This document shows, in pieces, positions 33,005 to 38,331 of a stretch of DNA of 64,000 bases (position 1 is the first letter of the stretch; the number at the start of each line of letters is the position of its first letter). The position numbers and the translations under genes are program-made. The notes under the pieces are model-generated. The model saw nothing but the letters and a program-made list of their open reading frames with translations, had not been told where the DNA came from and did no database searches. The DNA is taken from positions 92,106 through 156,105 of the forward strand of contig JACRIM010000028.1 in the NCBI GenBank assembly GCA_016235815.1. Reading direction: 5' to 3'. This DNA is from Planctomycetota bacterium (GTDB lineage: Bacteria; Planctomycetota; Phycisphaerae; UBA1845; UTPLA1).

Positions 33005-33670
33005 TCAACGATTCCACACAAGCACGTCGGTCACGGGCTTTTTCTTCAGGTCGGGGACGGTTGCGTTCACTGCAGGGCGACCGACCGGGATGAGCAGGAA
33101 CGGTTTTTCATGCTCAGGCCGATTCAAAATGGCCCGCAGGAAGTTCATGGGGCTTGGCGTGTGCGTGAGCGTGGCCAAACCAGCGACATGACACGCCGCG
33201 AGAAACAGGCCGCACGCCAGACCGGTGCTCTCGACGGGATAATACGTTTTCAGGCGACGGCCATCGGGCGCGATTTCAAAATCCACGCGAAAGACGACGA
33301 CCAGCCACGGCGCGATTTCGAGAAAAGGTTTCTCCCATGTCGTCCCGATCGGTTCCAACGCTTCCAGCCATTCGGCGGGCATTCGGTGATCGTAGCTCTC
33401 GCGTTCTTCGGCTTCGGCGGCGATGCGAATCTCGCGCTTGATCGCAGGGTCGCTCACACACACAAATCGCCACGGCTGGCGATTGGCTCCGCTGGGCGCC
33501 GTGTTGGCGATGGCCACGGCCGCTTCGATTACATCGCGATGCACCGGCTCGCCGGAGAACATGCGGCAACTACGGCGTGTGACCAGCATCGAATGAAGTG
33601 TCTTGAGTTTTAATTCTTGCTCATCCGAATTGAACGACGGTAGCGAGAACGGAATTTGCGGTGCGGGCAT
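33005..33670 (-). CDS. Nitroreductase-fold flavoprotein, iodotyrosine deiodinase-like
   Basis: 221 residues with the FMN-binding nitroreductase fold (TRRSCRMFSGEPV, NTAPSGANRQPW). Beyond the generic fold it carries the deiodinase features: E89-x3-Y93 in the lid and K114 in TTWEKPFLEIAP. The spacings (4 and 21) match the zwitterion-binding Glu, Tyr and Lys of human IYD as I recall them. THTPSPMNFL, RPEHEKP and ATVPDLKKKP also follow IYD. It probably reductively dehalogenates halotyrosines or acts on a related amino acid. It lies 45 bases after the SelW-like gene on the same strand, so the two redox genes may be co-transcribed. Confidence 0.82.
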   Translation of the reverse strand: MPAPQIPFSLPSFNSDEQELKLKTLHSMLVTRRSCRMFSGEPVHRDVIEAAVAIANTAPSGANRQPWRFVCVSDPAIKREIRIAAEAEERESYDHRMPAEWLEALEPIGTTWEKPFLEIAPWLVVVFRVDFEIAPDGRRLKTYYPVESTGLACGLFLAACHVAGLATLTHTPSPMNFLRAILNRPEHEKPFLLIPVGRPAVNATVPDLKKKPVTDVLVWNR

Positions 33671-33715: not shown

Positions 33716-33940
33716 TTATGACGCGGGCTTTATCTGATTGATGACCTCAAACGGCTCGGGGAAGCGGCCGGTCTTGTGTTTGCTGTAGAGGAGGCGTCCG
33801 TCACATTCGACATCAAACACGCCGCCACTGCCCTTCACAAGAACAGGGTCAACCCCGACCTCGTCTCTCATTAACTCCGCCAGACCGGCGGCCTTGGGGT
33901 AGTAGTTTCACTGGGTGCAGTACGTAATGCGAACGGTCAT
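33716..33940 (-). CDS. SelW/Rdx-family selenoprotein (in-frame UGA as selenocysteine)
   Basis: 74 residues if the TGA at 33910-33908 is read as Sec. Translation from ATG 33940 (GGAG 9 bases upstream) gives MTVRITYCTQU then NYYPKAAGLAEL, a canonical CxxU redox motif in the family's YCxxCxY position. The frame then continues open for 63 more codons with family-typical GSGGVFDVECDGRLLYSKHK and GRFPEPFEV, to TAA at 33716. The conserved protein downstream of the UGA argues against a pseudogene. A bacterial SECIS-like hairpin follows the UGA (33877-33891). SelW/Rdx proteins have a thioredoxin-like fold and are presumed thiol oxidoreductases. The gene precedes the deiodinase-like flavoprotein by 45 bases. 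Ordinary ORF calling splits it at the UGA. Confidence 0.85.
33877..33891 (-). promoter_or_regulatory. Candidate bacterial SECIS apical hairpin
   Basis: On the transcript CCGCC-GGUCU-GGCGG forms a perfect 5-bp stem with a 5-base loop; beyond a 2-base mismatch, AA/UU can extend it. The loop begins 21 bases after the UGA, inside the spacing allowed for bSECIS elements, and its GGUCU resembles the SelB-binding loop of E. coli fdhF. Confidence 0.7.
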
Positions 33941-34135
33941 GTGTTTTGGCTCCAGATTAGGCGAAATTTCTCTCGTAACGGGCCTATCTTATCCCTGCCG
34001 CCCCATGATATGCCCAATAAAAGCTTTAAGTCTTTAGCTTGGGGTGCGTTTTCATTGCCTTTGGACACCCGTTTCTGGTAACCTAAAGCTCCGGATTGGG
34101 GTGGTCCTCTGTTGACGTCGGGAAAGGGAAGACCC

Positions 34136-36871
34136 ATGTATCGATTTCGCCTTTTAGCTATTTTCACAATTGCACTGTCACTTGCAGGAATTGGTCACCA
34201 TACACCGGTATTGGCCAATACGCTCGAAAACCATCTCGAATCCTCGGCGATGGCAATTGATGGGCCTCCCACGCCTCGCCCGCCGATGCCGACCATTGTG
34301 CCGGGAATAATCTATCCTGCTCCCCCCTGGCGCGACAACACGTACACCGGGCGAAGTCTACCATTGAGCTTGTCGCAATGGACACCCACGGGACCGGGGC
34401 CGATTGTGAATGGTAATACGGCGGGAAATCTACCCACGTCCGGACGAACCGGCGGAGTCGCCGCCCATCCGACCGATCCCAACACGCTTTACATTGCCGC
34501 TGTTGGAGGCGGCATTTGGAAGACGACGGACGGCGGCACGATCTGGACGCCGCTGACCGACAATCAGGCGACGCTCTGGAGCTACGCAGTGGCCGTCTCG
34601 CAAAGCAACCCTGATATCGTTTACGCCGGAACGGGCGAGCCGACGAATTCAATTCTTTCGTTCTATGGGCGCGGCGTGCTCAAGTCGACCGACGCCGGTT
34701 CAACATGGACACTGCTCGGCAGCAGTGTGTTCGATCGGCGGACCATCGCGCGCGTGGTGATTCATCCGACCGACCCCAACACGGTCTATGTGGCCACAGG
34801 CGGCGGCGTAAACGGCTCCTCCGGAAACCGCGGAGTCTGGAAGACCACCGACGGTGGATTAAATTGGACAAACACCACAACCGCGATCACGGGCGCCCAA
34901 TTCAGTGGCGTTTATTCGGATCTCCTCATGCATCCGACGGATCCACTGACCCTGTATTGCGCAGTCGGGCAGTACAACGGCCAACTCAAGAATGGCGTTT
35001 ATGTCACGACCAATGGGGGCACGAGTTGGGCGGCGTCGGGAAATCACCCGGTGGGTACCGCCAACGGTCGAATCAGCATTGCCATCAGCAAGAGCAATCC
35101 ACTGGTCTTGTACTCTATTATTTCCAACCCGGGCACGAGCGGCCTCCTCAAAATGATGAAAACCATTGATGGAGGTACGACGTGGAACGAAGTTCTCGGC
35201 GTGCCGAACTTCATGGGCGGGCAGGGTTGGTATGACCAGTGCATCGCCGTTGACCCGACCAATCCGGACGTCGTGTATGTAGGAGGACAGTCAGGAACAA
35301 ACGGTATTCTCAAATCCGAGGATGGCGGATCGTCGTGGACCAGTATTGCGTCGGACGCCACCGGTGAAGGCCCGCACGTTGATTTTCACGGTTTCGGATT
35401 TGATGCGTCCGGACGATTGCTTTCGACCAACGATGGCGGCGTGTTCAGACTCAATAACGCTTCACTGGCAAGCCTCGACTGGGTTTCCTTAAATGGAAAT
35501 ATTCAGACCACCCAGTTCATCGGCATCGCCATGGACCCCGCCAATTTGGACTTGTCTTACGGCGGAAGCCAAGACAACGGAACCGAGAAATTCACCGGAT
35601 TCATAGGCTGGACGGCGATTCGTGGCGGCGATGGCGGCCACGTTGAAGTCGATCCATCGAATCCACTGACGATTTATCACACGTTTCAGTATCCGCGAAC
35701 TGGTGGAACATGGGAGCGATCCGACGACGGCGGTAACACCTGGCAAGTTAAACAAAATGGAATAAACGCGACCGGCCCGACACCAGACCCTGGCAATTTC
35801 TATGTCTACCTGGTCCTCGACCCATCCAATCCAACGCGATTACTGACCGGCACGAATCGTGTCTATGAAACGACGGATAAAGGCGAAAACTGGGCGCCAA
35901 TCAGCACGCCGAGCAACAACGGCTGGGGAACGGGAAGCGCCATCGACGCCATCGGCCTTGCGGCAACGGATATCAACGTTATTTACGCCACGGCCGGCGG
36001 TGCGATTTACGTCACGTCCAATCATGGCGCCACCTGGGCACTTCGAAATACCGGCACGACGGGGGATCACTTCAAAGACGTCGCCGTCCATCCCGAGGAT
36101 CCCAACACTGCCTATATCGTCCGCGATCGTTTCGGCGCGGGTGGCAAGGTTTTCAAGACCACAAACGCAGGCGTCAATTGGACAAACATCTCAAGCAATC
36201 TGCCGGACATCCCTGCCCAGTCGATCGTCATTGACTCCAACAATCCGGGGCAGGCCGACGACGTGCTCTATGTCGGCACGGATACCGGCGTCTATCGCTC
36301 CACGAACGGCGGCACATCGTGGACGGTCCATGCAACGGGAATGCCCAATTGCAGCGTCTTCGATCTCGATCTGAATCAGACCACGGGCGTGCTGATGGCA
36401 GGCACCCACGGTCGCGGTTCTTTCCAGATTCTCACGCCGGTTTCGCCGTCAATCACGCCGCTCACCGATGCGGCCACATTATGCGGGTCGGTATACACAG
36501 GACCGACGCCGAGCAGCTCCGGCTCGCCACCGCTGACATGGACGCTTGTGGCCGGCCCGGTCGGGATGACGATTGACGCCGGCACTGGCGTGGTCTCATG
36601 GCCAAGCCCGATCCCGTCGTTGTCCGATTACACCGTCACCATTAAGGCAGAAAACGACGGCGGTGGATTCGATACCAAGACCTACCTGCTGACCGTCAAG
36701 CCCGGCGATTTCAATGGCGACGGGTTGGCTGATTCGCTCGATCTGCCGGACTTTGTGAACCACCTGTTGGGCCTGTCGAACACGCGACCCTGCGCTGCGG
36801 ACGTGAACGGCGATACGTTTGTCGATGGTCTTGATGCACAGGCGTGGATCATCTCCAGCGCCACCCCATAA
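34136..36871 (+). CDS. Secreted BNR/sortilin-like propeller protein with dockerin-like C-terminus
   Basis: 911 residues from ATG 34136, preceded by GGGAAG; a TTG at 34112 in frame is less likely. A signal peptide (about 1-27, ending PVLA) is followed by many Asp-box/BNR propeller repeats (about 75-760), seen as HPTDPNTLYIA, GGIWKTTDGG, GVYRSTNGGTSW. An Ig-like cadherin-type segment (about 775-855) comes next, and the end is a dockerin-like pair of Ca-binding loops (GDFNGDGLADSLDLPDFV and ADVNGDTFVDGLDAQAW). The propeller is VPS10/sialidase-like but has no visible sialidase catalytic set. It is probably exported and cell-surface bound. A hairpin at 36904-36937 follows. Confidence 0.85.
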   Translation: MYRFRLLAIFTIALSLAGIGHHTPVLANTLENHLESSAMAIDGPPTPRPPMPTIVPGIIYPAPPWRDNTYTGRSLPLSLSQWTPTGPGPIVNGNTAGNLPTSGRTGGVAAHPTDPNTLYIAAVGGGIWKTTDGGTIWTPLTDNQATLWSYAVAVSQSNPDIVYAGTGEPTNSILSFYGRGVLKSTDAGSTWTLLGSSVFDRRTIARVVIHPTDPNTVYVATGGGVNGSSGNRGVWKTTDGGLNWTNTTTAITGAQFSGVYSDLLMHPTDPLTLYCAVGQYNGQLKNGVYVTTNGGTSWAASGNHPVGTANGRISIAISKSNPLVLYSIISNPGTSGLLKMMKTIDGGTTWNEVLGVPNFMGGQGWYDQCIAVDPTNPDVVYVGGQSGTNGILKSEDGGSSWTSIASDATGEGPHVDFHGFGFDASGRLLSTNDGGVFRLNNASLASLDWVSLNGNIQTTQFIGIAMDPANLDLSYGGSQDNGTEKFTGFIGWTAIRGGDGGHVEVDPSNPLTIYHTFQYPRTGGTWERSDDGGNTWQVKQNGINATGPTPDPGNFYVYLVLDPSNPTRLLTGTNRVYETTDKGENWAPISTPSNNGWGTGSAIDAIGLAATDINVIYATAGGAIYVTSNHGATWALRNTGTTGDHFKDVAVHPEDPNTAYIVRDRFGAGGKVFKTTNAGVNWTNISSNLPDIPAQSIVIDSNNPGQADDVLYVGTDTGVYRSTNGGTSWTVHATGMPNCSVFDLDLNQTTGVLMAGTHGRGSFQILTPVSPSITPLTDAATLCGSVYTGPTPSSSGSPPLTWTLVAGPVGMTIDAGTGVVSWPSPIPSLSDYTVTIKAENDGGGFDTKTYLLTVKPGDFNGDGLADSLDLPDFVNHLLGLSNTRPCAADVNGDTFVDGLDAQAWIISSATP

Positions 36872-36937: not shown

Positions 36938-37015
36938 TTGATAGTTCCGTGCGCCGCGATGGGCGGGGATGATCCAGCCCCGCTACGATTCCGGACGGTG
37001 CCTGCGGAGATTCTC

Positions 37016-37639
37016 ATGATTCGTCATCGACGTACGATTTGGCCGGCGTTTGCATTCCCACTGCTCGTTCTGTCCGCCGCGGCGTGCCGCGACGAAGCCT
37101 TCGCCGGCAAGCCCGGTCCCACGTCCAACGCCACCACACAAGGAGACAAAACTGTGACAACGCAAAAAGCAACGTTTGCCGCTGGATGCTTCTGGGGTGT
37201 CGAGTTGGAGTTTTCCCAAATCCCGGGCGTTCTCAAGACCACGGTCGGTTACACCGGTGGAAAGACCAAGGCTCCGACCTATCGCGATGTCTGCAATCAT
37301 GACACCGGGCACGCCGAGGCGCTGCTTATCGAGTTCGACCCGGCGAAGGTTTCATACGAAAAACTCGTCGAGTTCTTCTTTGAAATGCACGACCCGACGC
37401 AGGTGAACCGACAAGGCCCCGACGTCGGCGACCAATATCGCACGGCCATCTTCTATCATTCGCCGGAGCAGAAAGCGACCGCCGAGTTGGTGAAGACGCG
37501 GCTCACCGCCGCAAAAAAGTTCTCGCGGCCCATCGCCACCCAGATCGTGCCGGCCGTCGAGTTCTATGACGCCGAGGACTATCACCAGCAGTATTTCAAG
37601 AAGCGGGGAATTTCCCGTAGCTGCCACGCAAAGCCGTAA
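37016..37639 (+). CDS. msrA: Peptide methionine-S-sulfoxide reductase, lipoprotein form
   Basis: 207 residues from ATG 37016 (CGGAG upstream). An N-terminal lipoprotein signal (LLVLSAAAC, lipobox Cys about residue 22) puts the enzyme on the periplasmic side. The catalytic motif AAGCFWGVE is intact with Cys, not Sec. The conserved [15 protein letters not shown] and [10 protein letters not shown] segments follow. It repairs oxidised methionine in exported proteins. A resolving Cys is probably the one near the C-terminus (RSCHAKP). No msrB is fused or adjacent. Confidence 0.94.
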
Positions 37640-37815: not shown

Positions 37816-37893
37816 ATAAGCACAAGCGAGACAGGAGTCACCCGCCGTGGGTGCCCAAAAATGTGGCGAACATGTAATAGGGAGGAAAAAACC

Positions 37894-38331
37894 ATGTTCT
37901 TGAAGCGATATGAGCCTGCGAATTCCAACCTGCTTCGACGCGAGATGTCCGACCTGTTTGACACCGTCTTTCAGGCCTGGCCGTTTGAGCGCCGGCCGAG
38001 CGGCACGTTTCCGCCGCTGAACATCTGGGAGGACGCCGAGAATTACCATGCCGAAGCCGACCTGCCGGGTGTCGATCCGAAGGATGTCGACATCCAGGTG
38101 GAGGGCAATGTCCTGACGCTCCGCGGCGAGAAGAAGAATGAGGCGGAGGATCAGGGCAAGAACTATCACTATGTCGAACGCGTCTATGGCACCTTCCAGC
38201 GAACGGTGCAGTTGCCCAGCAACGTCGACCCCGAAAAGGTGACGGCGGCATACAAGAACGGTGTGCTGACGGTGACCATCGCGAAGAAGCCCGAGGCGAA
38301 GTCACGGAAGATCCAGGTCCGTGCGGAGTAA
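37894..38331 (+). CDS. hsp20: Small heat-shock protein (Hsp20/alpha-crystallin)
   Basis: 145 residues from ATG 37894 with GGGAGG 7 bases upstream. The alpha-crystallin domain (about 40-135) contains the LPGVDPKDVDIQVEGNVLTL core and the NGVLTVTIAKKPE motif near the end. The A-x-x-x-G-V-L signature is present as AYKNGVLT. It is an ATP-independent holdase that binds unfolding proteins. It is monocistronic, with a possible sigma-54 promoter upstream rather than an obvious heat-shock (CIRCE) operator. A hairpin at 38450-38472 lies between it and the convergent transporter gene. Confidence 0.95.
   Translation: MFLKRYEPANSNLLRREMSDLFDTVFQAWPFERRPSGTFPPLNIWEDAENYHAEADLPGVDPKDVDIQVEGNVLTLRGEKKNEAEDQGKNYHYVERVYGTFQRTVQLPSNVDPEKVTAAYKNGVLTVTIAKKPEAKSRKIQVRAE

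Follow-up and report, generated by a model that had tools for sequence, protein, structure and literature searches.

A predicted SelW/Rdx selenoprotein gene with an in-frame UGA and a conserved SECIS-like hairpin in a Phycisphaerae genome

SelW-like bacterial selenoproteins (PF10262, CxxU) form an already known, computationally predicted family, and the gene described here therefore adds a member to a known family. Passages of PMC1088965 rank SelW-like proteins first in abundance among the families of the Sargasso Sea set (48 genes), and passages of PMC1794560 describe few or no Cys forms of SelW in Sec-using bacteria and do not tie SelW to Planctomycetes. Sec genes have been reported in Planctomycetes in passages of PMC4807772, in whose main text SelW does not occur, and the main text of PMC5029168 makes no mention of SelW or of Planctomycetes. 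In the part of PMC13188914 that concerns them, bacterial SelW-like proteins are listed as predicted with high confidence, rather than as experimentally shown.

The locus studied here lies in a 64-kb stretch of planctomycete DNA (the window), on contig C9 of the host genome. The window gene resembles the SelW-like bacterial selenoproteins in profile, CxxU site, size, and the presence of a bacterial SECIS behind the UGA, and no difference in kind from them was found. The Cys-type Rdx proteins of Alphaproteobacteria and Actinobacteria (e.g., 2fa8) share its fold (Foldseek E of 3e-7) and have CxxC at the same place; unlike the window gene, they have Cys for the UGA, TGG at codon U+8 (codons counted from the UGA), and no SECIS loop. 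We read the window gene as a SelW/Rdx member whose in-frame UGA is predicted to be read as Sec, aided by a putative SECIS hairpin downstream, and we give this reading a probability of roughly 0.95. With this gene, which the genome has in two copies, a well-supported selenoprotein is added to a planctomycete lineage whose Rdx genes are nearly fixed in the UGA form.

Reading frame and predicted product of the window gene

The minus-strand frame from 33940 to 33716 translates as MTVRITYCTQ-U-NYYPKAAGLAELMRDEVGVDPVLVKGSGGVFDVECDGRLLYSKHKTGRFPEPFEVINQIKPAS, with a single TGA at codon 11 (33910-33908), followed by 63 sense codons and then TAA. This confirms the frame given in the initial annotation, which read YCTQ-UGA-NYYPKA from the ATG at 33940 and 63 open codons to a normal stop. 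The features of the locus are as follows.

33716..33940, minus strand: SelW/Rdx coding frame, 74 residues with predicted Sec at codon 11, stop TAA
33908..33910, minus strand: in-frame UGA, predicted Sec codon and second member of CxxU, from sequence reading
33950..33953, minus strand: GGAG, possible ribosome-binding site 9 nt 5' of the ATG, from sequence reading
33877..33891, minus strand: predicted SECIS hairpin, stem CCGCC/GGCGG, loop GGUCU (33882-33886), from covariation, synonymous constraint, and a held-out model

The read-through product scored 68.4 bits (E of 6e-19; cutoff, 22.6) against Pfam Rdx (PF10262) and 60.1 bits (cutoff, 34.2) against NCBIfam TIGR02174. By these profile scores the frame is far beyond chance, and the SelW/Rdx-like identity proposed from its motifs holds; the score against the narrower equivalog NF041051 was just below the cutoff (83.7 versus 88). 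Cys8 and the UGA at position 11 make up a CxxU pair after the first strand, and both positions are invariant in 18 aligned sequences when UGA is read as Sec. No promoter-like match was found around the gene, and no relatives of it were found in viral contigs.

The expectation that standard gene calling would miss the gene was borne out once, in a single search of a predicted-protein collection. That search, which needs shared five-residue words and similar length and is hence not exhaustive, returned two proteins: one is a 51-residue fragment of the window gene's product that starts downstream of the UGA, and the other is an 81-residue relative shown with C at the site. The presence of exactly this 51-residue piece in the collection would suit a real stop at the UGA, with the working product starting from the ATG that follows it. 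We regard such a truncated product as highly improbable, as I5, C8, Y13, P15, A17, and L20, all encoded before that ATG, are invariant in the 18 sequences and the constraint on the hairpin between the UGA and the internal ATG would be left without a reason.

A predicted model of the full-length product, with Cys in place of Sec (pLDDT of 94.1), has strand 1 at residues 3 to 8 followed by helix 1 at residues 14 to 27, so that the CxxU pair would sit in the turn joining them. The 21 best Foldseek matches among solved structures were chains of six bacterial entries (2fa8, 2oka, 2obk, 2ojl, 3dex, and 2p0g), two of which are titled as selenoprotein W-related, and these were followed by human MIEN1 (2ljk) and mouse SelW (2npb; E of 1.5e-3). 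The model therefore predicts the thioredoxin-like fold of known SelW proteins for the window product, which by analogy with its family may have a selenol/thiol redox role.

Among the neighboring genes, that of a nitroreductase (33005-33670) starts 45 nt downstream of the selW stop. An operon of the two was considered and rejected, since a nitroreductase stands beside selW in 0 of 58 other loci, most of them with about 1.5 kb of flank. The product of the divergent neighbor (34112-36871) has 919 residues, Sortilin-Vps10 and BNR-type repeats, and a dockerin-like C terminus. A Cys-form MsrA (GCFWG; 36980-37639) and an Hsp20 protein (37861-38331) are encoded on the other strand, 3 to 4 kb from selW.

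Selenocysteine machinery of the host genome

Insertion of Sec by this organism had been proposed from the window alone, with a genome devoid of the Sec machinery named as grounds for giving up the proposal, and the host genome was found to contain all of selA, selB, selD, and tRNA-Sec. In profile searches selA scored 535 bits and selB scored 309 bits (cutoff, 242), the latter in a frame of 664 residues that has a GTPase domain and SelB winged-helix domains and adjoins selA on the same strand of the same contig (C29). The selD gene (378 bits) has one in-frame UGA, in NCAGUAGK. A tRNA-Sec scored 67.6 bits (gathering score, 47), at the top of the best 150 of 741 first-look candidates, and has the anticodon TCA according to ARAGORN. 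A second tRNA-Sec profile match (contig C41; 47.6 bits) was rejected, as ARAGORN identifies it as tRNA-Ser(GCT). ARAGORN found no tRNA in the 64-kb window, and SelU was not found in the host genome. The genome also contains a second Rdx gene with one UGA, a paralogue on contig C27.

In order-mates of family f4 (e.g., G019, G029, G032, G047, and G050), selA was matched in two pieces, covering about 1-260 and 264-454, with roughly 80 to 150 nt between them in one open frame, which suggests an insertion in SelA.

The presence of this machinery bears on the identity of the residue at codon 11. An open frame through a UGA does not by itself name the residue, and Cys is the homologous residue, which leaves room for a UGA read through as an ordinary residue, either as Trp or as Cys by near-cognate reading. 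Such decoding is very improbable here: TGA ends 8 of 30 relatives' selW genes at the expected C terminus (30 of 32 loci read), selA, selB, selD, and tRNA-Sec are present, and the hairpin downstream fits the bacterial SECIS model.

The UGA form among relatives

The order search covered 101 genomes, made up of the host and 100 relatives. Rdx was found in 83 of them, and 88 of the 89 matches have exactly one in-frame TGA, the sole match without one being G016:C676 (L108). The UGA is the U of the CxxU pair in all 87 readable cases among the 88 UGA matches; the site was read in a first pass at 84 of the 89 loci, L083, L099, and L027 were read separately and are CxxU genes, and L035, whose gene was not at the assumed place, is the one UGA match left unread. 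Homologs from close relatives that stop or shift frame around the codon had been named as grounds for abandoning the Sec interpretation, and the conserved single TGA in these matches shows no such pattern. Relative to the SelW-like family at large, the window gene is set apart by its host, a member of this Phycisphaerae order, by the UGA type of 88 of 89 matches, and by its two copies in one genome. The near-fixation of the UGA form in the order is the less expected part of these results.

Cys homologs at the UGA position, which had been proposed as support for the site, do exist. In a scan of named genomes, 80 of 222 loci were kept, with a Cys codon at the site in 76 and TGA in 4, a ratio that is no census because one search pattern holds Cys at the site; the UGA thus occupies the CxxC/CxxU place of the family as initially claimed. 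Cys-type homologs are common in other phyla, as would fit a UGA that arose by accident in a Cys-type Rdx gene, either as a nonsense change through decay or as a sequencing error. We regard this origin as extremely improbable, the least probable of the alternatives weighed here, since the same UGA recurs in 88 of the 89 matches from the 101 genomes and in the paralogue, the frame after the UGA is conserved as protein, and the 36 nt following the UGA are under extra constraint.

The co-occurrence of Rdx and selA was tallied by eye from tables for both the order and the phylum, and the p-values below overstate independence because the genomes share kinship. In the order, selA was matched at E of <1e-20 in 77 of 83 Rdx-bearing genomes versus 11 of 18 Rdx-lacking genomes (Fisher p of 0.0016). 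Four of the six Rdx-bearing genomes without a selA match have SelB over the cutoff, including G075 (98% complete); the remaining two have completeness of 75% and 80%. None of the seven genomes lacking both Rdx and selA has SelB over the cutoff, although a 211-bit piece is present in G054. The phylum sample comprised 392 genomes, with Rdx in 143 and selA over the cutoff in 239; a strong selA match was present in 129 of the 143 Rdx-bearing genomes and absent in 14 (Fisher p of 4e-21). Of these 14, 12 have a UGA-type Rdx (completeness, 59 to 92%) and G104 has a Cys-type Rdx; the remaining genome is G391. UGA-type Rdx in some genomes without a strong selA match counts against reading the codon as Sec.

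Among the phylum Rdx matches listed, at least 11 are without a stop: three read CxxC with Trp at U+8, one reads CGGC, six read C-x-x-G, and one has neither residue. Seven UGA-less Rdx paralogues (L219-L225, in G248, G449, G381, G443, G233, G420, and G164) have lost the redox pair; six of them read C-x-x-G (e.g., IEYCVPGNY), L225 has neither residue (YSEPAQY), and several share a genome with a UGA-type Rdx.

A conserved hairpin downstream of the UGA

The bacterial SECIS model in passages of PMC13188914 describes an upper stem of 4 to 16 bp, a loop of 3 to 9 nt with a G in the first two loop positions, a spacing of 16 to 37 nt, and a minimum free energy of at most −7.5 kcal/mol. Numbered from the U of the UGA, positions 20-24 of the window hairpin (CCGCC) pair with positions 30-34 (GGCGG) in five pairs around a loop at positions 25-29, which starts 21 nt after the UGA. 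These values agree with the model (a 5-bp stem, a 5-nt loop beginning with G, 21-nt spacing, and −8.2 kcal/mol with the hairpin folded alone). The pair that loop positions 25 and 28 can form corresponds to the N1-N2 pair of the model, as the model is given in those passages, and the letters of the window family are far more uniform than it asks. The hairpin of the paralogue, also of five pairs, has an energy of −6.7 kcal/mol when folded alone, short of the model's −7.5, and its 39-nt fold contains the hairpin. The selD gene of the host is itself a UGA gene (L020:1480-2526; contig C21), and the hairpin 3' of its UGA has the loop CUCGU, without the G in the first two loop positions asked by the published model.

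Single-sequence thermodynamics for the window hairpin are weak and do not carry the case for a SECIS. When 39 or 61 nt from the UGA are folded alone, the window sequence prefers a structure other than the hairpin, and the pair probability of the hairpin, about 0.3 over 61 nt, rises to 0.98 only if the folded piece begins 12 nt 3' of the UGA. The energy of the 61-nt window sequence is ordinary (z of −0.30; range for six sequences, −0.19 to −2.08). An Rfam scan of the 64-kb window gave nothing at the gathering threshold.

Comparison among relatives shows a conserved, covarying SECIS-like hairpin 3' of the selW UGA. The large hairpin set comprised 117 UGA loci, 114 of them distinct, drawn from 86 of the 89 order loci, 3 loci of other phyla, and 28 phylum-search loci that were the 26 best scoring and 2 hand-picked ones rather than a random draw. 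In the 114 distinct sequences, 96.0% of 570 stem cells pair, compared with 18.8 to 63.9% when the stem positions were slid and at most 90.5% in 1,000 shuffles. Stem and GU loop are intact in 93 of the 114, against a mean of 1.5 and a maximum of 8 under synonymous resampling, in which codons U+6 to U+11 were redrawn from the usage of the same genes with the protein kept. In a set of 26 sequences excluding the window, 97.7% of stem cells pair; none of 500 shuffles reached the covariation score, the number of cells changed on both sides, or the number of further pair types, and the observed three pairs with changes on both sides were reached in 72 of 500. The pair at positions 21-33 changes from C-G to G-C in nine distinct sequences, at third codon positions, and loop positions 25 and 28 can pair in 95 of the 114 sequences (G-C in 46 and A-U in 49).

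Of the 114 sequences, 109 have AGT or GGT as the loop codon. Across 84 order loci, all 53 Ser residues at U+8 are encoded by AGT and all 31 Gly residues by GGT; elsewhere in the genes of those 84 loci, AGT accounts for 4 of 173 Ser codons and GGT for 85 of 558 Gly codons. A further 30 UGA loci (28 phylum and 2 order) have GGT (15), AGT (10), AGC (4), or AGG (1) at U+8, and the AGT/GGT rule thus loosens farther out. The Cys homologs differ at the same place: TGG (Trp) stands at U+8 in all 76, none has the SECIS loop codon, and all five stem pairs are found in 1 of the 76.

A covariance model (R1) whose training left out the window and its paralogue was used to search the host genome, and among the best 150 of 3,560 first-look candidates scored, the two highest matches were the window (33875-33910; 51.7 bits) and the paralogue (48.3 bits). 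The next match (contig C15; 17.1 bits) was taken as chance, as it lies in a long open frame without a UGA at that distance. R1 also finds three UGA genes of other phyla and matches 0 of the ten UGA-less loci given to it. The SECIS evidence for the window gene is unusually clean. The order comparison yields a compact bacterial SECIS that includes the loop pair of the published model and can be tested with reporters, and, with bacterial SelW listed as predicted only in the relevant passages of PMC13188914, this order is a place in which to test SelW.

We hypothesize that SelA would use selenophosphate from SelD to charge the Sec-tRNA(UCA), and that SelB carrying this tRNA would bind the hairpin (loop GGUCU) and deliver Sec at the UGA in place of termination. 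Such decoding would give a thioredoxin-like redox protein of 74 residues with a Cys8-x-x-Sec11 site.

The four TGA loci from the scan of named genomes belong to one Phycisphaerae genome and to MAGs labeled Acidobacteria, Aminicenantes, and Calditrichia, and their first 36 letters, counted from the UGA, are nearly identical. The loci of the three MAGs (L110, L111, and L114) are nearly identical to window positions 33875-33910, which may reflect either transfer or a very strong dual constraint. With moderate confidence we suggest that SelW is effectively an obligate selenoprotein in this order and in much of the Planctomycetota, that the dozen codons after the UGA form a dual-coding module for protein and SECIS whose near-same letters recur in the genomes carrying those three labels, and that much of the selW of the phylum is likely missing from or cut short in protein databases. 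Four phylum UGA genes (L195, L207, L208, and L214) have GTGAGC at U+7 and U+8 in place of the AGT/GGT loop and keep only three or four of the five stem pairs, and it may be that they use a different hairpin.
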